Of a stretch of 64,000 nt of DNA, positions 41,529 to 61,801 are shown in pieces; position 1 is the first letter of the stretch, and the number at the start of each line of letters is the position of its first letter. A program made the position numbers and the translations under genes. The DNA comes from Arthrobacter sp. Edens01. Lineage in GTDB: Bacteria; Actinomycetota; Actinomycetes; Actinomycetales; Micrococcaceae. The DNA is taken from NCBI RefSeq assembly GCF_001307035.1, contig NZ_LKIU01000004.1:238099-302098 (forward strand), in the 5' to 3' direction. Under the pieces are notes generated by a model. That model worked only from the letters and a program-made list of their open reading frames with translations. It made no database searches and had not been told where the DNA came from.

Positions 41529-42976
41529 GGCTCTTCACGGTTCGTGGTGAATGTTCTGCCGTGATGGGTGTTCATGCCACTGTTCTGGCGGCACTGCGCA
41601 ACAGGATACGTGTTTTGTAGTTGCGTGCGTTGGTGAACCCCCGGCCTGTTCGTTTGATGTGCTTGATCGCGGTGTTGTTTGCCTCAACTTTTGCTGTTGT
41701 CGCTCCGGTGACGATAAGGACTTCGATCTCTTTCCACCATCGGCAGACGGTGCGCCAGAGCCGGTTCGTTTCTGGCTGCGCGGATTGTTCGACCAGGGCC
41801 TGCAGTCGGTCTTTCGCAGCGGCTGCATCAGCGAGGGATCCGGTGGCAAGCAGGGCCCGGAGCTGTTCCTTGACCCGCCAGGCCGCCTGCAGCTTCCCGG
41901 TGGCATCGTCCGTGGCGAACACGGTGCTGAGCCTGTCCCGGGCCCTGTCCGAGAGCGTGTCGCCAGCACGCAACAGCAGGCGCCGGTTGGCCCAGACCGG
42001 GTCGATGGATCGTCCCCGCCGCCCATGGACCTTCTGGGTGAGTCTTTGCCGGACTTCGGTGAGCATGTCGTTGCCAAGCTTGACCAGGTGGAATGCATCC
42101 ACTGAGACCGCGGTGCGCGGCAGCCACATCCGCAGGGCCTTGCGGAACGCTGCTGACGGATCGATAGCGACCACCTGCACTCCCAGCCGCCACTGCAGGG
42201 GCCGGGCGAACAGCCAGTCACCGACTCCTTCGCTGTCACGGCCGTCCACGATGCCCAGGACCTGACCGGTGTCCAGATCGACAATGGTGGTCATCCATGG
42301 CTCGTACCGTTTCCAGGCCTTGGTGGCCGGGTCGCGGAAGAACCGCACGGACCGGTAGCGGTGTTCATCAATGCCGAGCATCCGCGGGGCCAGTGCATCA
42401 ACGTCAGGCAGCGTGAGCGCCGCGGAGTCCAGAGCCCGCTGGACCAGCCACCAGGAGACACCGAACGAGGAGGCAGCTTCCGCCGCGGCTCGTCCGGATC
42501 CGATCACAGCCGATACCAGGGCCTCACGCAGCCGGCGGGTGGACCGGGCCCGGCGCGGGACTTGGGCGGTCTCCTCGGTGAAGGTTCGGCGGGGACACAA
42601 ATACTCGCCACAAAAGAACCTCCGCTTGACCCACTGCACTTCAACCGGGCCCGCGACGGGGACGTCACGCAGGCGCTGGGATCGGCGGGAATGAACCCGG
42701 GTGCTGATCACCCCGCAGGACGGGCAACCGGCCTCGGTGGTGGTTTCGACACTGATCCGGCGCTGCCCGCAGGCGAGGATCTCGGTCCCGGTGACACGAT
42801 AGTCGGGCAGGTTGAAGATGGTGGTGGCAGCATCGGGGCGCGGGGAAGTAGGCTCGATCAAGGCTCGTAGCTCCTGACTCTTGATGAATGCGTAGAGAAC
42901 ATCCATCACAGCAGGGCTACGAGCCCTTTAGCTTTCAAGACACGGAACCTGTTTCACCACCAACCGCGAAGAGCCG
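41529..42976 (-). mobile_element. ISL3-family insertion sequence
   Basis: A 1448-bp element with 23-bp terminal inverted repeats: left 41529-41551 begins GGCTCTTCACGGTT, right 42954-42976 is the complement of GGCTCTTCGCGGTT, with two mismatches in 23. It contains one transposase gene. The 8-bp flanks (GAAAAAGC on the left, GCTTACGC on the right) do not match as a target duplication, so the flanks may have rearranged. The element looks intact. Confidence 0.85.
41572..42909 (-). CDS. ISL3-family transposase
   Basis: The 445-aa transposase has an N-terminal zinc-binding region (Cys62, Cys65, Cys100, Cys105), an HTH-like segment near residues 125-160 and a DDE catalytic domain. The acidic residues are placed as Asp181 (GIDEHRY), Asp250 (AIDPSAAFR) and Glu409 (AKVEANNTAIKHIKR). 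Full length with no stops, so probably active. Confidence 0.9.
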   Translation of the reverse strand: MMDVLYAFIKSQELRALIEPTSPRPDAATTIFNLPDYRVTGTEILACGQRRISVETTTEAGCPSCGVISTRVHSRRSQRLRDVPVAGPVEVQWVKRRFFCGEYLCPRRTFTEETAQVPRRARSTRRLREALVSAVIGSGRAAAEAASSFGVSWWLVQRALDSAALTLPDVDALAPRMLGIDEHRYRSVRFFRDPATKAWKRYEPWMTTIVDLDTGQVLGIVDGRDSEGVGDWLFARPLQWRLGVQVVAIDPSAAFRKALRMWLPRTAVSVDAFHLVKLGNDMLTEVRQRLTQKVHGRRGRSIDPVWANRRLLLRAGDTLSDRARDRLSTVFATDDATGKLQAAWRVKEQLRALLATGSLADAAAAKDRLQALVEQSAQPETNRLWRTVCRWWKEIEVLIVTGATTAKVEANNTAIKHIKRTGRGFTNARNYKTRILLRSAARTVA

Positions 42977-43108: not shown

Positions 43109-44806
43109 TTAGGAGGCGCTGGAAGCCGCTGCTGGCTCCAACTCCGGCTGCCACTTCTGCATCCGATCCATGGCATGCGCCATCTCCGGCCCACCGGCCT
43201 CGGCGATGAGATCGGGGTCGCCGACCACCACCAACAGGCACCGGGCACGGGAGAGTCCTACATAGAGCAGTTCAGCAGCCCGGCCCATGTCTTTGAAGCC
43301 GTTCACGCAGAGGATGACGACCGAACGTTCCAGCCCCTTGAACCCTAGGACATGTCCGTAGAACTCCGCGTCGTCGTCATGGAATGCCTTCCAGTATCCA
43401 ACGGGGTCGTTCTCGAATTCCTTGTGGATGGAGTGCCGGTTCTTGGTGGTTAGGAACGCGATCTGGTTGTTGGCCCAGCCCTCGTCGATCAGGGCATCGA
43501 CGCAGTCACCGGCGACGTCGATGGCGGCGTCGGTGGAACACGGCACCAGGCGCACGGGAAGCCCGTCGCCTCCGCGCGGCGCGAAGTGCTTGCCCGCGAA
43601 GCCCTTGAATGTCTGGGCAATGCGTTTGGTGTTCCGAAGGTTCTCGTCGATGTGCAGGGTGACGAGGCTACCGGTCGGATCAAGTGCCGTGCCGGCAGAC
43701 TGGGAATCCCACCTGCCGTAGACGTTCTGGCGTTCGTCCATGAAGGCATAGGTCTCCCCGCCTTCAGGATCCCGAAGGCAGCCGAGCAGGCTCTTCCACC
43801 ACAGCGGAGCGAAGTCCTGTGCCTCGTCGATAACGATGGCATCCAGCTTCTGATCCGAGGGAAGTCCCGCTGCGAGGTCCCTCATTAGAGCGGGCATGTC
43901 CTCGTCGAAGTAGGCCTGTCCGTGACCGTTGGGAACCCCGAGGGACACGGCGTAGTCGTGGAACTCGCCTACATAAACCGGTTTGGCCTGGCGCCAGCCG
44001 GCAACCTGCCGGCGGAGGTGCTCGGCAAGTCCCCGGTTGTAGCAAAACAGCCCCACCCGTTTGCCCTCTTTGGCCAGCCGTTTAGCCTTCTCCACAGCCA
44101 GCCACGTCTTGCCGCTGCCTGCGCCTCCTACGAACCGGGCTCTGGGGATAGAACGGCTGCAGTCGAGCAGGACCTTCTGCCGTTCGGTGAGGTGTTCCTG
44201 TAGGTCTTCGAGTTCGTCGGCGCTAAGCGACGGATCGCTAGTCGGCTCCAGATCTCCGGAGAGCAGGGGGATGATCCGCTGGGCGTATTTGGGCGCAAGC
44301 GAACTTCCGCCCTGCGCCTGGGTCTCGATGGCGGCACGAAGGCGTTCGCGGCAGTCTGTGAGGTCGTCATGGTCCAGGATCAGCGGGCGGGGAACCCCGG
44401 CCATTTCCCAGTCATGGGGAACATCGCTGTACGGGAACGCTGCCATGTAGGCGAACCGGCTGACCAACGGTGACCCGATCTGGTCCTTGACCCAGTCCTT
44501 GAAGGCATGCTGAGACCCCTGGGATTGCGCGATGGGGCTCTCGATTCGGTGCTTGCCTTGCCGATCGGACTGGTACCACTGGCCCTGATCGACGGAGATC
44601 TTGCCGCCCTTGACCTCAATCGCAGCCAGCCCAACGCCCGGCCACAGCACCAAGATATCGATCTCATGCTCTGCGCGCCCGTGGCGCACCTGGACGGAGT
44701 GTGCCAGTACGACGTCGTCGGGCAGCTGGGCGCGCAGTGTGTCCCACACGGCTTTTTCGGCCAAGTGGCCGTCTTTGAAGATCGGATCTTCCGGTATGCA
44801 GTGCAC
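43109..44806 (-). CDS. NERD-domain nuclease fused to UvrD-like helicase
   Basis: The 565-aa protein has an N-terminal NERD nuclease-related domain: EHEIDILVLWPGVGLAAIEVKGG with Asp50, Glu64 and Lys66. An SF1 helicase follows, with Walker A GGAGSGKT at 227-234, motif II VIDEAQDF near 327, and a C-terminal UvrD motif LLYVGLSRARCLLVVVGDP. Such fusions are frequent in defence islands and are thought to degrade foreign DNA. GTG start with GAGGGGGG. It is the last gene of the minus-strand defence array, 170 bp after the DUF6339-like gene, so it could have its own promoter. Confidence 0.85.
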   Translation of the reverse strand: MHCIPEDPIFKDGHLAEKAVWDTLRAQLPDDVVLAHSVQVRHGRAEHEIDILVLWPGVGLAAIEVKGGKISVDQGQWYQSDRQGKHRIESPIAQSQGSQHAFKDWVKDQIGSPLVSRFAYMAAFPYSDVPHDWEMAGVPRPLILDHDDLTDCRERLRAAIETQAQGGSSLAPKYAQRIIPLLSGDLEPTSDPSLSADELEDLQEHLTERQKVLLDCSRSIPRARFVGGAGSGKTWLAVEKAKRLAKEGKRVGLFCYNRGLAEHLRRQVAGWRQAKPVYVGEFHDYAVSLGVPNGHGQAYFDEDMPALMRDLAAGLPSDQKLDAIVIDEAQDFAPLWWKSLLGCLRDPEGGETYAFMDERQNVYGRWDSQSAGTALDPTGSLVTLHIDENLRNTKRIAQTFKGFAGKHFAPRGGDGLPVRLVPCSTDAAIDVAGDCVDALIDEGWANNQIAFLTTKNRHSIHKEFENDPVGYWKAFHDDDAEFYGHVLGFKGLERSVVILCVNGFKDMGRAAELLYVGLSRARCLLVVVGDPDLIAEAGGPEMAHAMDRMQKWQPELEPAAASSAS

Positions 44807-44976
44807 GGTTCCCCCCTCGTGTGCTGGCGGTGCCAGGTCCTATGAGGAGGTTATCGTGCTGTGAAGCTCACTGGACGGTACCGGACTCCCAGCGCGACAC
44901 CTGTGTCACTGTTCCCTAGCGCAGCCCATATCGGCACAGTACGACGAGTGCACCTGTCCGTACTGGACCTTGTGGG

Positions 44977-45729
44977 TTAGGGTTGGGCCCTTTCGAGGAT
45001 CTGCCTCACATACCCATCCAGAAGTGCGGCGAGTTCGTCGTCCGAGAGGATGTCCAAAACAACATGCGAGCGGGCAGCCAATACCCGGGGGATCAGCCCC
45101 CTCATCAGTTCAGTTCGAAGTATGGGCAAGAGCCCGTTCGCTTCAGCCCGCCATACTGCATCCCGGGCTGCCCTTGCTGCTTTTCGGCTTCCCGAAAGCC
45201 CAGACCGTTCCATAATCTGCACAAACTCGTCCTCGCCCAATGGAGAACAACCACCGGGGGCCGCGTTCAAGTCCGGCCCGAGAGCCCACGCCCTCCACCA
45301 GAGGCGACGGAGTGCGTTTCGGGGTACGCCTATAAGTCGACTCTCGGCTCTCTGAGGGAAACGCCACGGTGAGAGCTCGGGAACCAAGACCAGTGTCAGG
45401 AAACTCCAGACACCTTCGACGGCCGCGTCTCCGGGGACAATTCCGAGCTCCTTATATAGGTAGGTGCCCAAGGTGCGGTCGAGATTCTGTTGGGATCGTT
45501 GATCGAGCTTTGATGGAAAGCCGAACCCGGACGCGATCTCTCGGAGTCCGACTTGGATCCGTTGTAGCTCCTGTTGTGGAACAGGGATTCCACCGACAGC
45601 CGCAGGGGCCGCAGACGGATGGCTGAGGGCACCGTAGCCCACCAATTCAGTGAGACCTTTGTCGGCCAGCTCGGCGATGATTCTGTGCGCGACGTCGCGC
45701 GGCAATCGGGGATAGATGTAAATACTCAT
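44977..45729 (-). CDS. DUF6339-like protein
   Basis: The 250-aa soluble protein has no obvious enzyme motif. Features are the start MSIYIYPRLPRDVAHRIIAEL, a central GTYLYKELGIVPGDAAVEGVWSFLTLVLVPELSPWRFP and a Trp/Arg-rich RNALRRLWWRAWAL. This matches what I recall of DUF6339 proteins found beside Z1 helicases and cytosine methylases. The role is unknown. It overlaps the preceding gene by 4 bp (ATGA), so it belongs to the operon. Confidence 0.6.
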   Translation of the reverse strand: MSIYIYPRLPRDVAHRIIAELADKGLTELVGYGALSHPSAAPAAVGGIPVPQQELQRIQVGLREIASGFGFPSKLDQRSQQNLDRTLGTYLYKELGIVPGDAAVEGVWSFLTLVLVPELSPWRFPQRAESRLIGVPRNALRRLWWRAWALGPDLNAAPGGCSPLGEDEFVQIMERSGLSGSRKAARAARDAVWRAEANGLLPILRTELMRGLIPRVLAARSHVVLDILSDDELAALLDGYVRQILERAQP

Positions 45730-46619
45730 GAGAGTTTTCCTCTGGTGCTTTGCACGTGGGCCTCAAACTTGGACGGTTCACTGTCCCAGAGTTTCCGGAG
45801 TATGTGCGGATCCGAGATTTGTGGCCACAGCTGCAGCAGGAGACATCGGAGAACGGCGGCCACTGAGGGGTCCTCATGGTCGGGTTCCCGGTCCAGAACG
45901 GCATCTGACTGCACTGCCAGGACGGCCATCTGGCGGGTCACATCAATGTCCAGCAAATGCTGCAGCTCCTTGTTTTCCGGGGAGTGCAGTCCTTGCAGGA
46001 GACGTTTAATTGCCGGCTGTGACGTGTTCATGGACAGACGCACGGCACTCGCGAAGGAGGCTTCCGGGTCGGACAGGTCGGCATCCAGCTGCCAAAGGGC
46101 ATCGGGAGTGTCCGGGCGTGTTCGCCGGAAATCTTCTGCATCCGTTGGGAACTGTGCCCCGATCCCCTGGAGATAGACATGTGCCGAGTGTTTCCAGAGG
46201 ATGCTTCCCCGCTGGTGCGGGGCCAAAGGATCCAAAGGGACGGAGGCATCTACGAGGATGAAGGTGGTAAGGGTTAGGCGTCCGCCTAACTCGGTGCCGG
46301 GAACATCAAGGTGGAGTGGCACGGGAACATTCGCATCTGCAGGGGCTGCTGCATCCAAGAGCAGGATGTCGGCTTTGGTGGAATCAGATTTGGCTTTGAC
46401 GACCACCCGGAACTGACTTCCTTCCCCCAACCGGCACTGAGCGAGGATAAGCGGACGGTCTATCGTGACCTGAGCTTGAAGGCTTAGCACAGTCTGGTAA
46501 TCCCACGAGTCCATCTCTTCCGGAAGCGCTTCGCCGGAACCGTTTCTGGAGAAGAACCACCCTGAATGAACTACGGAATTCGGGTCCGGAGTGTAGAAAG
46601 GCGATACGGAGATTTTCAT
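45726..46619 (-). CDS. Unrecognised defence-operon protein
   Basis: The 297-aa protein starts MKISVSPFYTPDPNSVVHSGWFFSRNG. The first 150 residues look beta-rich (LSLQAQVTIDRPLILAQC, GGRLTLTTFILVDAS). The C-terminal half is helical (LLQGLHSPENKELQHLLDIDVTRQMAVLAVQSDAVL, AAVLRCLLLQLWPQI). I recognise no family or catalytic motif. It overlaps both neighbours by 4 bp, so stoichiometric expression with the second ATPase and the DUF6339-like protein is likely. It may be an adaptor subunit. Confidence 0.7.
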   Translation of the reverse strand: MKISVSPFYTPDPNSVVHSGWFFSRNGSGEALPEEMDSWDYQTVLSLQAQVTIDRPLILAQCRLGEGSQFRVVVKAKSDSTKADILLLDAAAPADANVPVPLHLDVPGTELGGRLTLTTFILVDASVPLDPLAPHQRGSILWKHSAHVYLQGIGAQFPTDAEDFRRTRPDTPDALWQLDADLSDPEASFASAVRLSMNTSQPAIKRLLQGLHSPENKELQHLLDIDVTRQMAVLAVQSDAVLDREPDHEDPSVAAVLRCLLLQLWPQISDPHILRKLWDSEPSKFEAHVQSTRGKLS

Positions 46620-48469
46620 GCAGTACTGCTTTCCACATCCGTTGAAACATCCCAGAGAACACTGGATGCTGATGAACGTTTCGCGCAGATGACTGCGTGT
46701 ACAGGCTCGTCACCGAAGACTTTGAACTCTGAACGGTGTCCCTCCAAGGTCTCACGGTTGCCCTCGAACTCGGCGGAGACCAGTTCCAGCTGCGGATCCA
46801 GCGTGGCGTCACTCGTAGCACCGTCCAGCGCAACCCCCACAGAAACAGTGACGACAGTAACGTCGGCACCTTTAGGCGGTGTCACGAGGCAGCGCAGATA
46901 AGAGGCGGTTTGGTTGCCGAGCATTCGGGGACCGGCGTCAAGTAGCTCGATGGACGCCCGCTTCGGGCCTCTCTTGCCTGCGCCGCCACCGCCGGGCGCC
47001 CCCGGCCGTCCCTTGCCCTGCCCGGAGGTTCCGATCAAGTGGGAGAGTGCGTTAGCCACCGAGGCTGTACTAGTCGATTCAGCAGCTGCTGCCGGCTTTG
47101 GCTTGCCCCACTGCGTCAGGACTGCCTGGTCGATTTCACGGAGGGCTTTGAGCACACGCAACCGCTGGTCGCGGAGAGTGACGAGGTTCGGTTGCCATGA
47201 ATCATGCGTTGGCGGTTCGGCATGAGCAAATGCGTCGTCCAGGGCATCTTCAGCGCGAAAAACACCGGCCCATTCGATACCTTCTTTGGCCGGCGGACCT
47301 TCCCGATACTCAACCACGAGTTCCGGGGAACGTAGCAGCACGGTGTGGTTGCAGGCCCGGTTCGTGAACGGTGAGGCCGGAGGCGGACTGTCAGGATCAA
47401 CCGGCTTGTGCCCGTCATCGATAGCCACGGGTGTGCTGAAAGGGGGAGTCGGAAACGGAACTGTTGCCAGCCTCCCAAGCCGCTCTTTGTTGCGCTTAAT
47501 CTCATGGAGCCGAACAACTGCTGTTGGTTCACCACCGTCTCCCCTGAGAGCTGAGTAAGCCGCAACGAAGTGGTTTAGGGGCGGTCTTGAATTCGGTTTC
47601 GGAATGGAGATTTCTGAACCGTCGAGGGTTGTTCGGATATCCATGGCCCTATCGTCGCCAACTAGCTTGGGCCAGAGATGCCACAAGACCGACTCGGCAA
47701 TAAAGGTCATGCCCTGTTGGACGGTTCTGTGTCCGAAGTCAGGATCGAGGATCAGGATGTTCGTTCCCAGCGAGCCTTCATCGATATCCGGCATACCAAG
47801 CCGGGCGGCCAGCGTGTCTGCCTCAATGCCCTCCAACGGGACGGGTTCCCTCGAATCATCTTTGCCCCACCAATGGCGCCCTGTATGGAGGATCCCGCCA
47901 AGCGCGAACTGACTACCTATACTGCAGGCGATCAACCGGCTCACGGGAGCACCGTTATGCATAGCCCGGCTATGAACAACTATGGTGTGGGGGCGCGAAG
48001 CGATGTAGGCAATGGTCTTGCCGAAGCCGTAGGTACCTCCGGTCATGCCGTCGGTGTTGGCCTTGCCCACATTGAGGATGAAGTCGACCCAGTCATAGTT
48101 TCCATCCGTCGACTCCAGATGCCCCTGGACTGGTCCTCCAAGTCCCTTCGTATTGCGGTCGGACACATATAGGCCCACTAGGTCCGTACGTTGAAGGGAG
48201 TGCGCGAGGGTTGGATCGGGAAGTTTGGAGGCGTTGTGGAAAACGGATTCACGAAGGCAAGTGACAACGCTCGCCGCCAAGGTCTCGGCAGCGATGTTGA
48301 AGACCACCGGTGCTCCACTTCCATCACGGGCGTCCCAACTGTTTTGTGCTGTTTCCCTCACCAAGACGGCCAGAGGGTCGAGATTGGGGCGGCCGAGTAG
48401 TTTTGCGAACCCGTCAGCCGCCAACCCTCCGCTGGGGGAAAACCGCTCGGGAATCCAATCAAGAATCAC
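46616..48469 (-). CDS. Second GHKL (MutL/MORC-like) ATPase
   Basis: The start was set to GTG 48469, with GAGGGA upstream; a TTG at 48487 would lengthen the overlap with the nuclease gene. The protein is about 617 aa. ATP-lid motifs of the GHKL fold are visible in order: N-box VRETAQNSWDAR near residue 40, G1-like YVSDRNTKGLGG near 105 and G2-like GGTYGFGKTIAY near 145. A long C-terminal region with a Gly-rich linker (GGGGAGKRGPKRAS) follows. It differs clearly from the GHKL protein at 57115-58578. It probably acts as an ATP-driven DNA clamp or switch. Confidence 0.7.
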   Translation of the reverse strand: MILDWIPERFSPSGGLAADGFAKLLGRPNLDPLAVLVRETAQNSWDARDGSGAPVVFNIAAETLAASVVTCLRESVFHNASKLPDPTLAHSLQRTDLVGLYVSDRNTKGLGGPVQGHLESTDGNYDWVDFILNVGKANTDGMTGGTYGFGKTIAYIASRPHTIVVHSRAMHNGAPVSRLIACSIGSQFALGGILHTGRHWWGKDDSREPVPLEGIEADTLAARLGMPDIDEGSLGTNILILDPDFGHRTVQQGMTFIAESVLWHLWPKLVGDDRAMDIRTTLDGSEISIPKPNSRPPLNHFVAAYSALRGDGGEPTAVVRLHEIKRNKERLGRLATVPFPTPPFSTPVAIDDGHKPVDPDSPPPASPFTNRACNHTVLLRSPELVVEYREGPPAKEGIEWAGVFRAEDALDDAFAHAEPPTHDSWQPNLVTLRDQRLRVLKALREIDQAVLTQWGKPKPAAAAESTSTASVANALSHLIGTSGQGKGRPGAPGGGGAGKRGPKRASIELLDAGPRMLGNQTASYLRCLVTPPKGADVTVVTVSVGVALDGATSDATLDPQLELVSAEFEGNRETLEGHRSEFKVFGDEPVHAVICAKRSSASSVLWDVSTDVESSTA

Positions 48470-49466
48470 TGTCTGCAAATCCCTCAATTAGGGCGAGCGT
48501 TTCAACTTGTTCCAAGGGTGTGGGTGGCTCGTTGGTTACATCAATGACGTAGGTTATTGAAACCACTCCCGGCGGAAGCTCAGATTGCTCGAATGAAGGC
48601 GGAATCACCCTTGGAAAATGTTCTTGTTTAACGTCGTATAGTCGCTGCTCTTTCAAAGCGAACCTTGAGTTCAGATATGCCTCTCTATGCGAGTCGAAAT
48701 AACCCGCCCTGCGAAGTTTTCGTTCGAAGAGAGACGATTCCACCCCGAGGTTGAGAATCGTATCGACCATACTGGGCAGCGAATCCCCCGTCGAGGAATG
48801 CTCATACCGGGTATAGGCCAGGAACAACCTGCCGGTGTCGTTGTTTGGCGCTTCGAGTTGCTGGAGGCTGCTGATGCCGATCCGGCGTCCTTCCCGGGCA
48901 AGGGACGCTTTCACCTCTATGGCAGTATCATCGGCACAAAAATCATGCTGTGACTTATCGGGTCCGTGCCAGTGGGACAGAGCTTGATGGTCTCCTGCGC
49001 GAACCAGTCTTTCCAGCAGTTGGAGTTCAGCAAGCAGACCTATCTGCTCAGAAACGTTTAGTTCCGGTCCCGTGGCTGCAGCGAAGAGGGCTTTCCACTC
49101 ATGGAATGCGTGTGTCACGTCATGTGCAGGAGACTCCGATTCACGAAGCACCTCCAAGAGTTCGCGTGCGAATTGCGTAAAAACAGTATCCAGCCTTCGC
49201 ACGGTGCAGAACGCACTTAGGTAATCCCGTGACTGAAATTTCACCCTGCTCAAGCGAACCGCCGCCCCGTCAGCCTGGTCGCTCACAGCCTCGCCGGGAA
49301 GCAAGGGGATGAGCAGATGACGATCCGACTTCGAGTCGAGCGCTGCCAAAACGTCGCCCGCCTCAACGCTGACGCCGATCGGGTTCGCCTGTGTAATCCC
49401 CTGCGTTCCCGTTCCCTCTGCGGAGTTGACCATCCACACTGACAGAAGGTCTGGATATTCGGTCAT
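48459..49466 (-). CDS. PD-(D/E)XK nuclease-like protein (DUF4420)
   Basis: The 335-aa protein has a restriction-endonuclease-like core: Glu147 in LLAELQLLE, Asp175 in QHDFCADD, and Glu184/Lys186 in TAIEVKASL, followed by Gln-containing SSLQQLEAPN. This matches the PD-(D/E)XK motif proteins (DUF4420) that accompany Z1 helicases. It is the best candidate for the DNA-cutting subunit of the system. It overlaps the Z1 gene by 4 bp. Confidence 0.8.
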   Translation of the reverse strand: MTEYPDLLSVWMVNSAEGTGTQGITQANPIGVSVEAGDVLAALDSKSDRHLLIPLLPGEAVSDQADGAAVRLSRVKFQSRDYLSAFCTVRRLDTVFTQFARELLEVLRESESPAHDVTHAFHEWKALFAAATGPELNVSEQIGLLAELQLLERLVRAGDHQALSHWHGPDKSQHDFCADDTAIEVKASLAREGRRIGISSLQQLEAPNNDTGRLFLAYTRYEHSSTGDSLPSMVDTILNLGVESSLFERKLRRAGYFDSHREAYLNSRFALKEQRLYDVKQEHFPRVIPPSFEQSELPPGVVSITYVIDVTNEPPTPLEQVETLALIEGFADSDS

Positions 49467-52069
49467 CCCAGAGCCACCTTGTCGTGAGAGCCTTCAGCAT
49501 CCACGTAGGTGCTCAGGCTGTCGTCGGCTTCGTCAGTATTGAGCATGGACACATCCACCTGAATCGCGTTCTTCGGCTCCGATCCCGCGGCAGCGGCGGG
49601 GAAGGAGAACGCCACACCCACCACATGCTCCGCGGCGTTCAGCTCCTTGCGGCTCTTGAGATGGGGTTGGGGAGCAGAGTCCTTATCAATGGGGTAGATC
49701 ACCAGGAGCGGACGTCCCTCAGCATTGCGGACTTCCTGTAGCTGAGCATCGCTTGCAACCTTCGCCTGGCTGGCTGTCCACCCCAGATCGAGTACACGAT
49801 CAACCCGTGACATCAGCGTGCCAATGTTGGCTGTGTCCGGTTCGCTACTGTTGAGCTGTGAACGGGTGATCAGATTCACGTTTTGCTCGAGGCCAAGGTC
49901 GAGTGTTTTCGCAGACCCGTCGCTTTGACCGGATTTCGAAACCACTGCAATGTTCCATTCACGGAGCGCCCCGAACTCCAGTTGTGTTTTTACATAGTCG
50001 GAGAGCATACCTTCGGACATCTCAGACTTGTCATTAAAATGGTAGTGATCCAGGAAGCTCAATATCGATTCGGCGGGAACCCCCTTGAAAACATCCCCCT
50101 GACCGTATACCCCCTTATCAAGAGCCTCATTTTTGGCGGCAGATAGAAGCTCCTTCGTTGCTTCAATGTTTCCCACCAGAATCTCGGAATTGGTCCGGTC
50201 GAAATATGTTGTTTGTGGGTGGGTTTCACTGAAGGAGGCTGACGCCTTTATCGCAAACTGCATCTTCAGGGGAGATGTCACCTGCATTCGCGGATGAGTC
50301 TGAATGCGCACGGCCACATCACGTGGCGACGCAGCTCCACCCTCGTAGCGCTTGATCTCTGATCGAAGGTCGCTTTCAATCTCTGCCAAGAACTGGAAAT
50401 CATCCTTAAGCTTGCGGGTAGTCCAGACCCGGGGAAGATCCTCGTAACCACGCCGATACCCGAACCAGCGTCCCATCTGCAGTGCGGAATCATAGGCACC
50501 CGCTGTCCTCAGGAAAAACGAGGACACAAGGCCTTCCAAGGTTAGGCCCCGGGAAAGTGTGTTGCCGCCCACGGCAATGACCGTCGCCGGGTCCGCGGCA
50601 TAAATGAGGCGCTCGGGCGAGGCGCTGTTGTCTGCGACCACCTTCGTGTCAGTGAGTACGTCGGGTAGCAGTCCCAGTAACTCTTCGAATGACGGCGCTA
50701 CCAGGTTGTGGCGGGCAGCCGGTTCCCGTTGTACTTCGGATTCCCACTGGTTCTGCCACTTCGACGTGTCGCCGCTTTGGAGTTCTTTCTGCAGGTCTTT
50801 CACATGTTTCCGGATAACGGGCACCAAAGTGTTCTGAGGGTCGACCCTCATGGTGGTGTGGATCAGCATGCTGGAGTGCTTGGCCTCTCCGTTTCTAAAC
50901 CGGCGCGCAGCCGTAGCCAGCAGGAACCAGCGGATGGCGTCGGACAGGCTGGGGGTCACTTTGGGGGAGTAGGGGCTCTTAGAGCTGGATTTGTATGCTT
51001 CCGCTTCGGCGTCAGGCACGAACCGGATCATGTCGTGGCCCTGGTCCTCGGAGCTCTCTTCCGGCTCAGCCACGGCGGCTCCGAAGAGTTCTTCGGAGCC
51101 GAAGTATCCGGCCGGCTTGGGGAGGGAATAGATGAAGTCCCGCGGATAAATGTTCTGTGGATCTGCGGGATTGGCCAGAACGTTGGCAAACGGCGTGGCG
51201 GTATATCCCACGTACGCCACACGGGGCAATCCCAAGAGATCGACGAGCAAGCCGTTAATGGCTGTTTGATCGAGCTCTGCATCTCGTGCGGAGTTCGGAC
51301 TGGCCTGGTCTGCCTCGTCGTCGATGATGAGCACGGGACACTTGTTGAGACCCCCCTTTTCATGGGCGTCCAAGAGCCAGTCGCGAAGATTTGTGAGCCG
51401 CGAAACGTTCTTTTTTACCACTGCCAACAGCCGCAACTGTGACCCGGCAACCAATGGAAGCGCTTTGACCGGATTGCCGAAATCGCCGAATTCATCTGTT
51501 AGCTGGACCCAGTCTGCCGGTCTCAAATCGCAAAGCTGACTGTCGAGGCGCAGCTGGGTCTGGCGGCGCAGGGAGTTATGCACGCCGGAAAGGACGATGA
51601 ACAGTCTGTAGCCTGCATCAGCGGCCTTCGCGATGGTTGCAGTGAAATTGGCAGTTTTACCCGACTGGACATAACCGAGCACCATTCCGCGTGTCCGGAT
51701 GGTTTCGCTGTGCGGGTCGGCCAGTAGGGACACGACATCTGTGGAGGTCTTGTCGAGGGACGGAACGGCATTGGCCCAACCCGGGTCGGCTTGCAGTTTT
51801 GCCTTGAGGCTCGGCCAGAAGACATCATGGGGTTGGGGGCCGGCATACCATGGCTCTGTTTCCGATTCCTCATCGAAAACGGTGACGCCGTGAGCGTCCG
51901 CGAGTCTTTGCTTGATGATCAGGTCGCGTTCGGTAAGGACGTCCTCGACCAACCCGTCATTGTTGAGCATAATACGCAAAGTATTTATGGCAGCGTCTTT
52001 GGAAACACTGGTTTTCATCAGAACTTCGAGAGTTTCAAGCGCCGCGAGTCCTTGGGCGTTTAGGGCCAT
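49463..52069 (-). CDS. Z1-domain SF2 helicase, second copy
   Basis: The 868-aa protein has Walker A GYVQSGKTANF (132-142), motif II VLIIDDEADQASPN, motif III VGYTATPFANVL and the Z1 segment VGGNTLSRGLTLEGLVSSFF...LQMGRWFGYRRGYEDL. Z1 proteins are SF2 ATPases found with MutL/MORC-type ATPases and nucleases. ATG 52069 follows AAGGAT. It pairs with the PD-(D/E)XK and second GHKL genes downstream. It is a paralogue of the Z1 protein at 54243-57113, with similar motifs but different flanking domains. Confidence 0.88.
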   Translation of the reverse strand: MALNAQGLAALETLEVLMKTSVSKDAAINTLRIMLNNDGLVEDVLTERDLIIKQRLADAHGVTVFDEESETEPWYAGPQPHDVFWPSLKAKLQADPGWANAVPSLDKTSTDVVSLLADPHSETIRTRGMVLGYVQSGKTANFTATIAKAADAGYRLFIVLSGVHNSLRRQTQLRLDSQLCDLRPADWVQLTDEFGDFGNPVKALPLVAGSQLRLLAVVKKNVSRLTNLRDWLLDAHEKGGLNKCPVLIIDDEADQASPNSARDAELDQTAINGLLVDLLGLPRVAYVGYTATPFANVLANPADPQNIYPRDFIYSLPKPAGYFGSEELFGAAVAEPEESSEDQGHDMIRFVPDAEAEAYKSSSKSPYSPKVTPSLSDAIRWFLLATAARRFRNGEAKHSSMLIHTTMRVDPQNTLVPVIRKHVKDLQKELQSGDTSKWQNQWESEVQREPAARHNLVAPSFEELLGLLPDVLTDTKVVADNSASPERLIYAADPATVIAVGGNTLSRGLTLEGLVSSFFLRTAGAYDSALQMGRWFGYRRGYEDLPRVWTTRKLKDDFQFLAEIESDLRSEIKRYEGGAASPRDVAVRIQTHPRMQVTSPLKMQFAIKASASFSETHPQTTYFDRTNSEILVGNIEATKELLSAAKNEALDKGVYGQGDVFKGVPAESILSFLDHYHFNDKSEMSEGMLSDYVKTQLEFGALREWNIAVVSKSGQSDGSAKTLDLGLEQNVNLITRSQLNSSEPDTANIGTLMSRVDRVLDLGWTASQAKVASDAQLQEVRNAEGRPLLVIYPIDKDSAPQPHLKSRKELNAAEHVVGVAFSFPAAAAGSEPKNAIQVDVSMLNTDEADDSLSTYVDAEGSHDKVALG

Positions 52070-52118
52070 TTTTTATCCTTGAACTTGATACGGGAGTAAG
52101 TAACCGGGAGGTGACGCG

Positions 52119-54194
52119 TCACCAAGGACTAAAGAGGGTAAATCCCCGTTCGTTGGCATTGGCAACCAGCTGGATGAGCCTGGCAGCCTGCCGTTCTGAA
52201 GGGACTCCGGACTTTCGTCCTGTCATAAGTCCCAGGATGCTCATATCGGTAGGGGAAGCGACCCTGTTCATGCCGGCAAACCCTTCCAGCGCCTTCCAAT
52301 GCTCTGTGGGGATCTCATAGAGCCGGGTTTGCAGGCCGATTCCATTGTCTACCTTTTGGTTCGCCTTGGCAGCTTTGCCGCGGGCAGCGACGGTGGCGGC
52401 GTCAACCAAAGCCGAGAGGAAATCAGCGGGCAATGTGTAGTGCATGGCCTTGACGGTGTCCCAGCACTGCGCCTTTTTGGCCCACTCCGTGACGTTCGTT
52501 GTGCTCCGATGTTCACTGGTGAGGACCTCCTGGACAAGGCGTCCCACCTGGTTGGCGACGACCAGCACGGACTCCGGGACGGCTTGTGCGGACCACACGG
52601 CATCAAAATCGAAGACCTTGCCTTGTCCCTGCTGCTCTACCAGGCTAGCAATCTTGGCAACCGTGTAGGCGGCAATGTTCGCCAAGTACGCCTTGCGATA
52701 CCAGTCAGCATTCTTGATGACGTTCCTGACCTCAGCGAAGAGGATGCCTTTGGCCACCGTCTGCTTAAAGTACTGTTCGTTGAACTGGTCTGGATCCTTA
52801 TCCCAGCTCTTAGCCACGATATCGGCAAAGGCAACGAAGTTTTTCTGTGCTCCCGCGCTCACGGTGTGGGGGCGCTGGTCCCACGACATAAGGTATTTGG
52901 CCAATGCCGGTTTATCGAACTTTTGTGACTTCGGATTCAGATTTTCGAAACGGACGGCCTCAGAGCGTGAAAGCTTGCTGCGTTCATTTTCATATTGCCC
53001 GCGAGTACGTTCGTAGTACCAATGGGTGCTGTGGACGGCACCGGAACGGGACGGGACAAGGACCTTGCGCGAGAGCTCAGCTAGGCGGACGTGGTAAGGA
53101 CTGTTGGAGAAGAAATCGGCAGAGCTGACTGCGTTCTGGCTGTTAGCAAACCGGGAGATATTCGGTATAAGTTCGGCGGCGAGCTCAGGTGCGACGACTA
53201 CTAGCTTCATTTGTACAAAAACGCCGTCCAAAACTACATCGGATTTCGTTTCCCTCTGCACGAAGAATAGTGACGCCGTGGTTTGGCCACCGTTTACTAT
53301 TTGTAGATCCTCGATCGAAGTAAGCGCGCTTCCATCCTCAGAGGTTGTAACACTCGTTGCTGTCGCAGTTACTCCGTTGTTAAACGCCATGAAGTTCTGC
53401 GGAGCGGAATGGATCGTCGCGCGGATGCCCTTGTTGATCTTTCCTCTATTGCTGAGGTAGGACCTTACGTTGCTTTCAAGCAGTCGGCTTCCATGCTTCC
53501 CATACAGTGAGGACAGGACTCGGCCGGGGACAGAGGCCAGATAAGTCGCAAACTCGGGCGTGGATTCCACGCGAAGCGCAGGAATTCCTTGGCTGGCCCA
53601 CTCGGTGAGGTCGATCTGAAGAGGCTCATGGCCGCTTTGGGATTGGTGGAGCTGGTGGAAACGCTCCACATCCCAAAGATGGAAGTCCACCGGAATCCCG
53701 TGGACGTCTTCAGAGGGCAGGGACCGCAGACGATCACTCAACCTGGCGTCCGTCATGAGATAGAGACGGTAACGTGAAACGTTCCTGCCTCTGCTCCGCA
53801 GATCCCATGCGAGCTGGTATGCCGGTGAACTTTGCTCCCGCCCCTGCGTGAAGCTCCCGTCGAGTGCATCCAGCAGGAAGTAGTGAAGGGCCCTGAGGGC
53901 CGCTTTTGCATCGGGCGCGGAGAGCGTTTGAATGGTCTCCGTCCCGTAATGGACGCTTGCGACGATGGCAATACTGTTATCTGCGTTCTCGAGGTCGTAG
54001 CCGTTGACCTTGAGTTTCCGCTGATTGGTACCCGAGCCCTCGAAGTCCAAAACTTCGATGTCATCGAACTCGCCTGCTTCGGTAAGTATTTCTCCGCAGT
54101 GCCTAGTAAAGGCGGTAGCGACGAATTCGCCCTCGGCGTTAGCCAAGGCGCCGACAGCAGCGGCCTGCTGCTGGTAGTAGCTCTCAATATCCAT
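52119..54194 (-). CDS. AIPR-family phage-resistance protein
   Basis: The 691-aa protein matches the AIPR (abortive infection phage resistance) family. It has the conserved core NVRSYLSNRGKINKGIRATI, NFMAFNNGVTATATSV, LQIVNGGQTTASLFF, PNISRFANSQNAVSSADFF, and WYYERTRGQYENERS. The biochemical role is not settled; AIPR proteins are constant partners of Mza-type and some restriction systems. It lies between the two Z1 genes with gaps of about 50 bp on each side. Confidence 0.88.
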   Translation of the reverse strand: MDIESYYQQQAAAVGALANAEGEFVATAFTRHCGEILTEAGEFDDIEVLDFEGSGTNQRKLKVNGYDLENADNSIAIVASVHYGTETIQTLSAPDAKAALRALHYFLLDALDGSFTQGREQSSPAYQLAWDLRSRGRNVSRYRLYLMTDARLSDRLRSLPSEDVHGIPVDFHLWDVERFHQLHQSQSGHEPLQIDLTEWASQGIPALRVESTPEFATYLASVPGRVLSSLYGKHGSRLLESNVRSYLSNRGKINKGIRATIHSAPQNFMAFNNGVTATATSVTTSEDGSALTSIEDLQIVNGGQTTASLFFVQRETKSDVVLDGVFVQMKLVVVAPELAAELIPNISRFANSQNAVSSADFFSNSPYHVRLAELSRKVLVPSRSGAVHSTHWYYERTRGQYENERSKLSRSEAVRFENLNPKSQKFDKPALAKYLMSWDQRPHTVSAGAQKNFVAFADIVAKSWDKDPDQFNEQYFKQTVAKGILFAEVRNVIKNADWYRKAYLANIAAYTVAKIASLVEQQGQGKVFDFDAVWSAQAVPESVLVVANQVGRLVQEVLTSEHRSTTNVTEWAKKAQCWDTVKAMHYTLPADFLSALVDAATVAARGKAAKANQKVDNGIGLQTRLYEIPTEHWKALEGFAGMNRVASPTDMSILGLMTGRKSGVPSERQAARLIQLVANANERGFTLFSPW

Positions 54195-54242
54195 TTGTCC
54201 CCATTTGTCTGATGATGATCCTGAAGGATCGTTGTGCTGCTG

Positions 54243-57113
54243 CTAAGCGAGTTGTTCGTAATCCGAGACCCAATAACGCTGGGCTACGCGGTTTAGTAAG
54301 TACTTGGCGCGGCCGTTGCGCCCGCGCGGGTCATAGTCGGTTTTCGGCAAGGCAACCTTGAGAGCCATAAACGGAAGATGTTGTTTCTGCGCCTCTTCAA
54401 GGAAGCGCATCGATTCAACAGCGTCCTTTGGTAGCTCGGCCAAATCTTCTACCTCAATGGTTCGATTCTGCTCTTGACCGCCTGCGCTGATATACACCGG
54501 GTAAATCAAGAGCTGAGGTTTACTGAGGTGGCCGTAAAACGCGGTTTCAGGAATCGATTTTTTTGCGTCTTGGCCGAGCTCCTTGAGAGCATCCATGTAT
54601 CTCCCGGAAGCTTGCTGCTCGATCTCTTGGTCGAGGAGTTTCTGCAAATCGTCAGGTCCCGCCAGGCGGCCCCGCTTACCACTGACCCAGAGCGAGGATC
54701 CTCTCGACGTTCCATCCTTAGAAAACAATGGACGAAGGAGCATCTGTCGTTCGACGGGGTAACACCCGCTGAGCGGGCCGAGGGTTAACGGAGCGTTTCG
54801 TTTCACCGAGCCATTGACAACTATGATGTCCCACTCTTGGAAAAGTTCACCTTCGCTGCTTCGCACCATGCGTTCCAAGCTTGCACCGTTGAATAGGATG
54901 TCGTCCGGTGCTGCCGAAAAGCGGAGGAGTGCGTCGGCGATCATATCCTTGGGAACGGAGCGAACCCGCGCATACCCCCGCCTGGTCGTGTCGACGGTGC
55001 AGTCGTTTCCCACCGCGTCGCTCAGCAGCTTGACTATGGAAGTGTGGTTTTCCCTCTGGAGTTCAACACTTGTGGAGAGTTTCGTGGTTTCCAAGTTGCG
55101 TCCCAGCAGGTTGATTTCCTTTGGGGCGGACATGGCGTGCCTTGACTTGTTCCTTGCGGTGATCAGGAGTGATTGGGGGTGCTGTTGCACGGCGAGGCCG
55201 AAGTCACGGGGGATCATTTTACTTCGGCGCATATAGGCGAGATCCACGCGGAGCTCTTCCACCGCTGTAGCGATGAACCTGTAGTCTCCAGCTGTACTTT
55301 CGCTGATCCAAAGCTTGCAAATGTCCTGGTACCCATCCCGGTACCCGAACCATCGCGCCATCTGCATCATAGTGTCGGCAGCGGCAACATTCCGGTGGAA
55401 ATAACTGACCACGAGTCCGTCCAAGGTCAGGCCCCGGCTGAGCAGGTCACCACCGATGGCAATCTGCCTCTCCGGCACTTCATCATCGAACTCGGTGTGA
55501 TCGATCCCTGGTGCGGAGTTGTACACCTTGACGCGGACTTCTGCGACTGAAACCGGCAGTGCGGACAAAACACTTTCCCAAGAGGTGCCGTTCGCGCTGT
55601 ATTGGCGCGTGAATGTTCCCTTCAGCTGATCCAGCAGCGGATGCGTCCGCCCTGCAGCATAAGCTGCAGCATGCAGTTGAATGGCTGTTTTGTACTGAAA
55701 GAGCGCTTCGCGCAGTGCGTCTGCCACGTGGTTTTGGACATCGGTGAAGCGCGATACGTTCACCAGCATGGAACGTTTTGCGGGTGCTTTCAGCCGATGG
55801 TCCAAGATGGCGTTGGCCAGTAGGAAAGTGCGGAGCGCTTCCTCAAGGCTCGAAGGCAGGCCCTCGGGGCGTTGAAGTTTCTTGTGTTTCAAGGGAAGCC
55901 AGCGAACAGCGTCTTGGAGTTTCTGGACCTGGGTTCCGGGTTCATCCGGCGCCCGCCCGAATACCGCCCGGACGCCGACGTAGTTACTGGGAGCATCGAG
56001 GGGGTAAATGAAATCTTCGGGAAACAGGTCGGGCAGTTCCTGGCCATCCTCGGTGAGGCAAGCCGTTGCCTCATCATCGATGAAGATGTTGGCAAAGGGC
56101 GTCGCGGTAATAGCCAGGTAAGAGGACCGGGTAAACAGGTTCAGAAGCCGCCTGATTGCTGCGTTTATTGCAGTGGGATCGTCGCTTTCGTCGTTGGTGT
56201 TGACCGATGCGTAGTCGGATTCGTCATCAATCAGCAACAAGGGTAAATCGATCCTCTGGTGGCTGCCGGCTTTTGCCTGGGCCCATCCTTGCACTGCCTT
56301 GAGGACGTGCGTGTTCTTCTTGACCACAAACACCAACGGCGGGGAGGTAGGCGTAGGCAGGGCTACGTCGCCGGCCGTTCGGCTGACCTGAAGGTAATCC
56401 ATCAGGGTCGTGGTGAGGGATGTGGCATCTGCGATCTCCCGATCCACGTTGCCAATACCAATATGCACGTCTCGGGGAACGCGTGCTCCGTTATGCATCC
56501 CGGTGAGTGTCGTGTCCCTGCCGATGAACCCCTCGTCGATCCGGGAATGGGTTTGCTGACGGAGGTATTCGGTGTTCCCGGAGAGGATGACGATAACGCG
56601 ATATCCTGCGTCGGCTGCCTTGTTCATCAGGGCAAGATAGTTCTGGGTTTTCCCCGACTGTACGTCGCCAATAACTAGGCCTCGGCGATTCCAGAAGCCG
56701 GTCATTCTCGGGTCCCCGGCAAGGTCGAGGATTTCGTCGCTGAAGTGATCTAGTCTGTCGAGAACTGCGCCCGAACGCCCGGCGTCGGAAAGCATATGCC
56801 GGTAGGCGAACCACCTTCGCCATACGATGTCAGCCTTGCTCTTCTGCAACCACGGTATGTGATCATCCTTGACGAGCGGACCACCCTCGCTCGAGGAACC
56901 GGTGGCGGTCAGCTTTTGTACCCAGTGCTCCACCAACTCGTCCATTTGCGATTCGGTTGAACCCGTCGGAAGCCGCGTACGTGCACGATCGAAAGACAAT
57001 CGAATCTCATCTGCGGTGAGGTCCGGACGGTATTCATCGGTGTCGGAGTCTTTGAGGAGGGACAGTGCGGTAGCCTCGACCGAAGAGACTGGAAATAGGA
57101 ATGCGTCCGTCAT
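54243..57113 (-). CDS. Z1-domain SF2 helicase, first copy
   Basis: The start was set to ATG 57113 (MTDAFLFPVSSVEATALSLL), just after the stop of the GHKL gene; the longer frame would overlap it by 215 bp. The 956-aa protein shows Walker A DVQSGKTQNY (150-159), motif II LLIDDESDYASV, motif III AITATPFANIFI, and Z1 segment GGDLLSRGLTLDGLVVSYFH...MQMARWFGYRDGYQDI. It likely translocates on or remodels DNA for the system and pairs with the upstream GHKL ATPase and methylase. Confidence 0.9.
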   Translation of the reverse strand: MTDAFLFPVSSVEATALSLLKDSDTDEYRPDLTADEIRLSFDRARTRLPTGSTESQMDELVEHWVQKLTATGSSSEGGPLVKDDHIPWLQKSKADIVWRRWFAYRHMLSDAGRSGAVLDRLDHFSDEILDLAGDPRMTGFWNRRGLVIGDVQSGKTQNYLALMNKAADAGYRVIVILSGNTEYLRQQTHSRIDEGFIGRDTTLTGMHNGARVPRDVHIGIGNVDREIADATSLTTTLMDYLQVSRTAGDVALPTPTSPPLVFVVKKNTHVLKAVQGWAQAKAGSHQRIDLPLLLIDDESDYASVNTNDESDDPTAINAAIRRLLNLFTRSSYLAITATPFANIFIDDEATACLTEDGQELPDLFPEDFIYPLDAPSNYVGVRAVFGRAPDEPGTQVQKLQDAVRWLPLKHKKLQRPEGLPSSLEEALRTFLLANAILDHRLKAPAKRSMLVNVSRFTDVQNHVADALREALFQYKTAIQLHAAAYAAGRTHPLLDQLKGTFTRQYSANGTSWESVLSALPVSVAEVRVKVYNSAPGIDHTEFDDEVPERQIAIGGDLLSRGLTLDGLVVSYFHRNVAAADTMMQMARWFGYRDGYQDICKLWISESTAGDYRFIATAVEELRVDLAYMRRSKMIPRDFGLAVQQHPQSLLITARNKSRHAMSAPKEINLLGRNLETTKLSTSVELQRENHTSIVKLLSDAVGNDCTVDTTRRGYARVRSVPKDMIADALLRFSAAPDDILFNGASLERMVRSSEGELFQEWDIIVVNGSVKRNAPLTLGPLSGCYPVERQMLLRPLFSKDGTSRGSSLWVSGKRGRLAGPDDLQKLLDQEIEQQASGRYMDALKELGQDAKKSIPETAFYGHLSKPQLLIYPVYISAGGQEQNRTIEVEDLAELPKDAVESMRFLEEAQKQHLPFMALKVALPKTDYDPRGRNGRAKYLLNRVAQRYWVSDYEQLA

Positions 57114-57114
57114 T

Positions 57115-58578
57115 CTAGAACTCCGTCCCGTAAGCAGTTTCACGCAAGGCCGCCTCGGCGCGGGGGTGCTTGTCGAACGGTTCCGAGGTGAGCATGGCTT
57201 TGACAAAGGCTTCCGGGGCGAGCGTGGTCTGAAGCTGTCCCCAGAGCGCCCTTGCCAAATCCCTAAGGTCTTGGTCCTGCACCTCCGCGCCGGAGTGGGA
57301 CAGGTCCTGCCCCATCTTGTTGTAAACATCCTCGATGGGAAACGTTCGCTCCATGAGACTCAGAACGGTTTCCAGGGCCGCGGACTCATGACGATCGAAC
57401 GTGCTGCTGAGCGCGATCAGTGCAGGGTGATTTCTGTTGACCTCGTAACGGAACGACTCAGCGTCGGAGACGGCATTCCAGATATGTGTGATGGGACTGC
57501 GCTCTGTTCGCCCGCGATAGGTGTGCGCACGCTGGCTTGGACCCACAATTGTGGCTGCAACGGCACGAAGCCGGTCCCTGATAACGGGTGGAGGTACGGC
57601 TTGGGCCTTCTTGATGTCCAGAGACCATAGATGGTCCAGGGAATTCGGAACATCCACTTGCACCCGTGCCAGCTTGCCTAATTCCTGTTTCGGAGCCACG
57701 CGGAACCACGTTCCCCAGATGACAAGGCGCATGGCACGGTAAATATAGAAACCCTGGCTGTCGCGCAATGAGCCGTTTACATGGGCCTTCCTACGGTCCG
57801 ACGGCGACATCATGTTCAGGTGCGGAAGAGTATAGGGACGCAGTTCAATAGTGCCTTGGTCCAAAGATATGCGTTCCAGCGGGCCGATTTGGGTGGCCTT
57901 GTGATCCTTGAGCAGGGGATCAGTCGCAGGGACGGACGTAAAGTTCAGACGGATATCGAGCGGCCGTCCGTGCTCGCCTGCCAGGAACCTGTGGAAAACA
58001 AGTCCCAAGTGAGAGGCCGCTCGCATCATGGCCTCGTCCATTGAAGCAATCGAGTTACCACTGGTGTTTTCAAGCTGGTCCAGATCCTGCCAAAGGATCA
58101 TCGTTCCGTGATCCAGGGCTTCGAGCGCTGCGTACTCAGGGAGGGCTTGGTACTCTTCCGGTGCAAGTCGCAGGAGGCTCCAGCTGGAGGAGCTGCTGAG
58201 GTAGTCCAAGTCCCACCTGAAAGCGTGCACCTCGCGGCGCTGTTTCGTCACCAGAGTAAGCTTGCGGCACTGGGAAATGGATGCGGTCTTGAGTCCGAGA
58301 CCGAATCGTCCAAGATCGTGGCTCGCACGCAGGTTTCGTGAGTCATTTCCTGCCAAGCGCATCGCATCCTGTGCCTCCAGCTCGGTCATGCCCAAGCCGT
58401 CGTCGATGATGGCTACGTAGGGCTCACCGGCCGCGGAAAACCGAATGTCCACCGTTTCTGCGCCGGCTGTGATCGAGTTGTCTACGAGGTCAGCCAACGC
58501 GGTTTCCAAGTTGTAGCCAACGGCTCTCATGGATTCCATGAGATGCGGTCCAGGCAGCAGTGTGATCGCGTCCGTCAA
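57115..58578 (-). CDS. GHKL (MORC/MutL-like) ATPase
   Basis: The 487-aa protein has a complete Bergerat fold: N-box ALADLVDNSITAGA (Asn34), G1 DDGLGM (59-64), G2 GRFGLGLKTAS (90-100). The N-terminal LLPGPHLMESMRAVGYN supports the TTG start at 58578. The middle domain is of ribosomal-S5-like type and there is a helical C-terminus. Members of this group are the bacterial relatives of eukaryotic MORC proteins, found in restriction-modification operons. It lies between the cytosine methylase and the Z1 helicase. Confidence 0.88.
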   Translation of the reverse strand: MTDAITLLPGPHLMESMRAVGYNLETALADLVDNSITAGAETVDIRFSAAGEPYVAIIDDGLGMTELEAQDAMRLAGNDSRNLRASHDLGRFGLGLKTASISQCRKLTLVTKQRREVHAFRWDLDYLSSSSSWSLLRLAPEEYQALPEYAALEALDHGTMILWQDLDQLENTSGNSIASMDEAMMRAASHLGLVFHRFLAGEHGRPLDIRLNFTSVPATDPLLKDHKATQIGPLERISLDQGTIELRPYTLPHLNMMSPSDRRKAHVNGSLRDSQGFYIYRAMRLVIWGTWFRVAPKQELGKLARVQVDVPNSLDHLWSLDIKKAQAVPPPVIRDRLRAVAATIVGPSQRAHTYRGRTERSPITHIWNAVSDAESFRYEVNRNHPALIALSSTFDRHESAALETVLSLMERTFPIEDVYNKMGQDLSHSGAEVQDQDLRDLARALWGQLQTTLAPEAFVKAMLTSEPFDKHPRAEAALRETAYGTEF

Positions 58579-58704
58579 GGGTCCCCCAGAGCTAAAATGC
58601 GATTAGTACTTCTGAAGATCAGAGTATCGCCACGCGGTGACATTCCTGTTAATGCGACACAGCAGCCTGAACGCATGGACCCAGATAGCAACTCTTCTCA
58701 GTTC

Positions 58705-60183
58705 TCAGCGAACCCCCAGGACTTCTGCAATCCTGCTTGCGATCTTTCTGGCCAGCAGGGGAGGAACTGCATTCCCCACCTGTGTGTATTGCTGCGTGCG
58801 GTTTCCTAGGAAGACGTAGTTGTCGGGGAAGGTCTGCAGCCGCGCAGCCTCGCGCACGGTAAGGCTTCTCATCTGTTCATGGTCCGGGTGAATGTAGTAG
58901 TGCCCGTCCTTGGCGATGTGGGACACGACGGTGGACGAGGGCCTTCCCCACGCCTGGACGCGGAACCGATCCTCGAACGGGACGACTACGTTGTTGATGT
59001 TGTTGTGCTTTGGCCAATGGGCAGCCGGCAGACTGCGGACCTTGGGGCTTTGACCATCGGCTGTAACGAGTGCAGCCAGCAAGTAATACCGAACCAAGTC
59101 TTCGAGCATGTGTCCCCGGGCTTCGTGGTTCCAAGTGACGGGGGCCGCATCTTCACGGAGCCACTTTTGAAGTTCACCGGCTGCTGAGTCCTCGGCGAAA
59201 GGTTCTGCGGGTCGGACGGCCGTCGACCTGGTGCCGAGCTCATAAAGTCTGGGAGCAGCCGCCTGTTCCTTTCCGGGAAGCGCCCGTAGGGACTTGTGCG
59301 CCTGCTGGCGGATCCTTGCCCAGTCTTCCCAAGTGGCCTGCGGCTGACGGGAAATGCCGGAACGCAAGTGAGGCAGGCTCCAGATGGCGTCCTGAACGGT
59401 AACCGCCTCACGGGGTTCAAGTACTTTTGGTGCCGGAAGCTGGGCATCCCGGCGCAGGCCCACAATGATGACACGGTGGCGCTTCTGGGGGATTCCGAAC
59501 TGCTCTGACTTGATGATGAAGTCTGTGGGCTTGAGTTCGCCCGTGTCGCTGCTGACCACCATCGAGTGAAGGTCGTACCCCGGCCCACGCAGATCCTGCT
59601 CGATCAGTTCGAAAATCTTGCCGTCGCCGCTCTTGGAAGAGAGCATGCCCTTCACGTTTTCCATAACGAATACCGCAGGGCGGAACTCAGTGATGATGTG
59701 CAGGTATTCCTTGTAGAGGAAGTGCTTGTGGTCGTCCTTGAACGTTGCGTCGTGCTTTCGCCGGGAGCGTCCGGCCATGGAGTAGGCCTGGCACGGCGGC
59801 CCGCCAATGAGGACCCATTCGGAGGCGTCCTTCAGAGATTCGCGGATCAACGCGTCGGACTCTGGACGGCTGTCTTCACTCAGGGTGAACTGTCGGACTT
59901 CGTCTTCTGCGTGCGCGAAAGCTGCGGCCACCTCCGGCGCCACACGCATTTCGTCGTAGGTCACGTCCTTGGCAAGGAACCGTTTGTAGATCTCAGGTTG
60001 ACCTTCAGGCAAATCGAGAAGGAACCGGTGAGCTGCGCGTAGGGTCAGAGTCTTGACCGCCGACGTCTCCATCTCGATCGACAGAACTGTTTTGAAGACC
60101 CGGTTGCCGTCCTGATCGCGGATGCTGGAGAAGCCTTCGTTCAGGCCGCCAGGGCCAGCAAAGATGTCAACGACGGGGATCAC
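58705..60183 (-). CDS. DNA (cytosine-5) methyltransferase
   Basis: The start was set to GTG 60183 (GGAGG five bases upstream); a TTG four codons earlier is the alternative. Motifs appear in order: I DIFAGPGGLNEGF, IV GGPPCQAYS with the catalytic Cys, VI MENVKGM, VIII IPQKRHRVIIVGLR, IX RPSSTVVSHI and X YTQVGNAVPPLLA. The target-recognition region lies between VIII and IX. As first gene of the minus-strand array it probably marks self DNA so that the downstream Z1/GHKL/nuclease proteins spare the host. Confidence 0.93.
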   Translation of the reverse strand: MIPVVDIFAGPGGLNEGFSSIRDQDGNRVFKTVLSIEMETSAVKTLTLRAAHRFLLDLPEGQPEIYKRFLAKDVTYDEMRVAPEVAAAFAHAEDEVRQFTLSEDSRPESDALIRESLKDASEWVLIGGPPCQAYSMAGRSRRKHDATFKDDHKHFLYKEYLHIITEFRPAVFVMENVKGMLSSKSGDGKIFELIEQDLRGPGYDLHSMVVSSDTGELKPTDFIIKSEQFGIPQKRHRVIIVGLRRDAQLPAPKVLEPREAVTVQDAIWSLPHLRSGISRQPQATWEDWARIRQQAHKSLRALPGKEQAAAPRLYELGTRSTAVRPAEPFAEDSAAGELQKWLREDAAPVTWNHEARGHMLEDLVRYYLLAALVTADGQSPKVRSLPAAHWPKHNNINNVVVPFEDRFRVQAWGRPSSTVVSHIAKDGHYYIHPDHEQMRSLTVREAARLQTFPDNYVFLGNRTQQYTQVGNAVPPLLARKIASRIAEVLGVR

Positions 60184-61547: not shown

Positions 61548-61789
61548 GTCCTTTGGCAACCCATCGGCACAATGGTACTCAGCTCAAGAAGCTCACGCAT
61601 TCCCGATGGCCGAGTCATTTATCCCTCTGCGCAGCTCGGGCAACTGACGGGTGTGACGTCATGCACCCGAGAACGTAGGTCGGGACAGCGTGAGGGCAGC
61701 CCCTGTCCGCCTAAGCAAACCGCTGCACGCAGCCCCACTTGACGCCGGAAGGGAAAAGGCACGGTGCGCCTCTGGCCCAGCGGCACAGG

Positions 61790-61795
61790 TATTCT
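61790..61795 (+). promoter_or_regulatory. -10 box for a leaderless restriction-gene transcript
   Basis: TATTCT lies exactly six bases before GTG 61802, so transcription would begin at or beside the start codon. No ribosome site precedes that codon. No convincing -35 box is seen. The rest of 61548-61789 holds nothing I can support. Confidence 0.4.
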
Positions 61796-61801
61796 TGGAA
61801 C

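Follow-up and report, generated by a model that had tools for sequence, protein, structure and literature searches.

Both halves of a gene cluster in Arthrobacter sp. Edens01 have been described as predictions from gene context, in PMC9523054, with its putative 'type I' and 'type II' defence systems, and in PMC2292703, on MORC/paraMORC restriction-modification (R-M) operons; the former states that function and mechanism are still to be determined, and the latter infers a mechanism. The cluster lies on contig NZ_LKIU01000004.1 within the analysed stretch of 64,000 nucleotides, referred to here as the window, and its nine adjoining genes unite two such predicted DNA-restriction machines, a Mza-like set and a type I machine, that are separate in other relatives. 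The constituent parts had been predicted earlier; the new element is their joining. Such a composite lends itself to asking which components can be common to two machines of related type.

Two predicted machines with a single methylase gene and a single nuclease gene

The type I half sits directly behind the Mza-like set, and the two halves together contain a single DNA methylase gene (M, the sole PF00145 match of the genome) and a single nuclease gene (DUF4420, found in one copy in the whole genome). GHKL1, the first of two GHKL ATPases, clusters with its counterparts from Mza-like loci that stand alone. Halves that never co-occur elsewhere, or a frameshifted second ATPase or Z1 gene, had been named in the original prediction as signs of chance adjacency; the block is kept as a single unit in five genomes, in all of which the nine genes are open, with ratios of non-synonymous to synonymous substitution rates (dN/dS) of 0.03-0.20.

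The favoured reading, somewhat more likely than not, is a composite restriction operon whose two halves have the methylase in common and would also share the nuclease. A more far-reaching reading, possible if doubtful, is that a constant ATP-driven machine of five subunits would derive self/non-self specificity from the adjoining cytosine methylase via DUF6339, with a dead methylase captured in one lineage as a DNA-reading domain; in the composite, a single methylase and a single nuclease would then serve both motor sets. Alternatively, and again possible if doubtful, two independent systems adjoin, the Mza-like set lacking DUF4420, AIPR acting as its own (e.g. abortive) effector and the methylase alone being in common. 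Against this alternative, the block is conserved as a single unit, and DUF4420 is kept in 9/9 fetched stand-alone relatives, so its loss here beside a second copy suggests replacement. It is from this gene loss that we infer the sharing of the nuclease between the two halves.

Several points weigh against the favoured reading. AIPR alone may be what the Mza-like branch acts through, or that branch may have a regulatory part; the predicted motor and clamp roles are those of the protein families; and all composites found belong to one genus and may have a single origin. DUF4420 is absent from some type I loci (L035, where a methylase is kept, and L136, where both are missing), so the nuclease is not strictly needed for the rest to be retained. 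A second 5-methylcytosine (5mC) methylase lies directly beyond the composite unit in genome G680 (L114:18046-19356), and a single methylase is thus not the rule across all five genomes.

Methylase exchange and candidate specificity subunits

Methylases and the five-gene type I machine are often exchanged across loci. At locus L119 (G651:C1:722000-741999), from the same genus, a methylase 91% identical to M stands beside a machine only 20-38% identical; the left-flank gene is shared with three composites, the type I machine is different and inverted, and flank gene and machine are separated by a gene encoding a sigma-70 region 4 domain. Judged from sequence, this is an apparent replacement of the machine in place. 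Such exchanges, chiefly this one with the methylase kept and the machine changed, open the source of target specificity in this family to direct testing, with DUF6339 as the first subunit to consider.

Pairwise tests kept the 91 loci that had all five subunits together with a methylase 250 aa or longer; the near-copies L114-L117 and L123 were left out of the Mantel tests and tree comparison, and L045 was also left out of the later ones. In the first all-loci partial Mantel run, which still contained L045, DUF6339 alone remained clearly associated with methylase similarity once the other four subunits were accounted for (0.14, 0/500 permutations), with P0008 borderline in the all-loci test (27/500). 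The DUF6339 association was 0.22 where the methylase is upstream, i.e. not adjoining DUF6339 (0/400), and 0.23 among short DUF6339 proteins (0/400), and it held when the five largest methylase clusters were dropped one at a time (0-10/400); these clusters, built by single linkage at 40% identity, are coarse labels. DUF6339 would, in the proposed mechanism, couple methylases to the machine.

Were the methylase and DUF4420 each to recognise the same site alone, in the manner of classical type II R-M enzymes, with the other proteins just powering or regulating cutting, the near-constant presence of a 5mC methylase (93/98 loci) and the invariant nuclease residues of DUF4420 would fit, as would the partial correlation between DUF4420 and the methylase in one leave-out subset (r 0.078, 13/400). 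Specificity in DUF4420 was nevertheless rejected, leaving this arrangement unlikely, as the residual association is absent over all loci (partial r -0.009 and 0.012) and the DUF4420 beside the 91%-identical methylase in L119 is only 25% identical.

A C-terminal cytosine-methylase domain is fused to DUF6339 in 29/96 proteins, and a Pfam check of two of these, both from Streptomyces, matched PF00145 at 1.1e-37 (L087) and 8.2e-36 (L051). Motif IV of the fused domain is PR, not PC, in 29/29, so the catalytic cysteine is gone and the domain is presumably catalytically dead; a separate methylase (at least 250 aa) is nearby in 27 of the 29 fused loci, with the catalytic cysteine in 27/27. The target domain is more conserved in the dead (0.69) than in the live (0.46) methylase.

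A specificity role for DUF6339 is in turn opposed by other results. The link to the methylase is weak, it vanishes where the methylase is downstream (0.04, 94/400), and parsimony label changes number 22 on the DUF6339 tree versus 23-24 for the other subunits. Tracking of the live methylase's target domain by DUF6339 in the fused lineage was rejected: the target domains of dead and live methylases there share an identity of 0.178 when taken from one locus and 0.171 when taken from different loci, with no excess within, and in the fused subset the methylase association of DUF6339 is matched in strength by those of GHKL2 and P0008.

P0008 was also rejected as a DNA reader, its model (predicted local distance difference test, pLDDT, 92.8; predicted template modelling score, pTM, 0.63) giving weak matches, none at E <= 0.001, the best being sandwich domains of glycoside hydrolases. 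The DUF6339 model (pLDDT 95.5) had no PDB match at E <= 0.001, and PDB sequence searches with P0008, DUF6339, P0005, a GHKL2 profile and AIPR gave nothing useful. GHKL2, P0008 and DUF6339 are near-constant among type I loci, and the exact EPPTH of GHKL2 (residues 424-428) occurs in 79/96 members.

The locus, its neighbours and its relatives

The cluster of methylase, GHKL, AIPR, DUF4420, DUF6339 and NERD genes described in the original prediction is real, and the interpretation offered there, either a modular two-effector machine or a fusion of two related systems, is supported in part. The conserved unit has nine genes, the NERD helicase being rejected as a part because it is directly beside DUF6339 solely in the window and in G525. 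NERD relatives lie about 6.8 kb (G673) and 8.1 kb (G626) from DUF6339, further pieces (about 71% nucleotide identity) lie some 1.2 kb beyond the methylase in G626, and the match in G680 is limited to 255 bp, at a distance of about 8 kb past the methylase. That the locus is only a degenerating defence-island assortment whose genes do not work together, as the surrounding ISL3 transposase and other restriction genes and at least one decaying relative (Devosia L139) might suggest, is highly improbable given the nine open genes and their dN/dS in five genomes.

Table 1. Features of the window, with one fused protein from a relative
Feature	Position	Strand	Remarks
M: 5-methylcytosine DNA methyltransferase	58705..60183	-	motifs PCQ, ENV, QVGNAV intact
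GHKL1: MutL/MzaB-like ATPase	57115..58578	-	N, G1, G2 boxes intact
Gene of nine-gene unit, between GHKL1 and AIPR	54243..57113	-	
AIPR protein, MzaE-like	52119..54194	-	
Gene of nine-gene unit, between AIPR and DUF4420	49463..52069	-	
DUF4420 PD-(D/E)XK nuclease, type I lineage	48459..49466	-	residues E147, D175, E184, K186, Q203
GHKL2 (P0007): paraMORC2-like GHKL ATPase	46616..48487	-	EPPTH = ExxxH; true start may be GTG at 48469, from relatives
P0008: subunit without name	45726..46619	-	model: beta-rich N-terminal part, C-terminal helices
P0009: DUF6339-family subunit, mostly helical	44977..45729	-	
NERD-UvrD-like helicase	43109..44806	-	neighbour, outside conserved unit
ISL3-family transposase	41572-42909		just past NERD helicase
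Arginine deiminase gene	36833-38095		
Restriction and methylase genes	60348-63831		divergent neighbours: protein matching C-terminal part of a model for type IV methyl-directed restriction enzymes; next, a type II restriction enzyme and a probable N4/N6 methylase
Fused DUF6339-methylase (example)	L087:12873-14720		

An Rfam search of the window gave no match. GHKL2 had no match in phages and was found in three plasmid records; locus L179 is the same DNA as plasmid locus L137. One locus (L136, Agrobacterium plasmid pAtCFBP5507a; n=1) has the type I machine but neither DUF4420 nor, over about 9 kb around it, any 5mC methylase call, so that nuclease and methylase are absent together. Methylases of cluster m1 (about 640-750 aa) adjoin a MutL-like GHKL (about 430-525 aa), usually convergently, at 15 loci (L017, L018, L020, L022, L024-L028, L033, L036, L065, L067, L083 and L088), to the left or right of the type I machine as if the pair moved together. 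The Planobispora loci L045 and L049 had seemed to differ by a methylase swap, which was rejected, the nearest L045 methylase call being a fragment; both loci have a methylase 8.6-8.8 kb downstream of GHKL2, and these two are 92% identical.

Comparison with described systems

DISARM gene sets carry drmA/drmB beside drmMII; here the methylase alone matches the models (DrmMII 2.7e-98), and the other nine proteins have no Drm match. The CglI and NgoAVII nuclease combines PLD and B3 domains (PMC4267653), whereas the nuclease here is PD-(D/E)XK and is accompanied by GHKL ATPases and additional subunits, and none of the ten proteins is a PLD nuclease with a B3 DNA-binding domain. A superfamily 2 helicase with DThhQXuRhFG, a restriction endonuclease-fold nuclease with E-D-ExK, AIPR and a cytosine methylase are common to this locus and the PMC2292703 operons, and EPPTH of GHKL2 fits the paraMORC2 ExxxH motif given there; the available part of that source describes no composite of two such operons.

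Compared with the putative 'type II' of PMC9523054 and the Mza system (mzaABCDE), homologues of MzaB, MzaC and MzaE occur here in order, but MzaD (DUF4420), which lies between MzaC and MzaE, is missing from the Mza-like set, the sigma factor MzaA has no match among the ten proteins, and all four NCBIfam equivalog cut-offs are missed (306/850, 449/1500, 358/1050 and 98/420 bits for B, C, E and D). The three extra genes of the type I system in PMC9523054 may correspond to GHKL2, P0008 and DUF6339, a putative equivalence; what distinguishes this locus is that the type I machine stands directly behind a Mza-like set, with the methylase in common.
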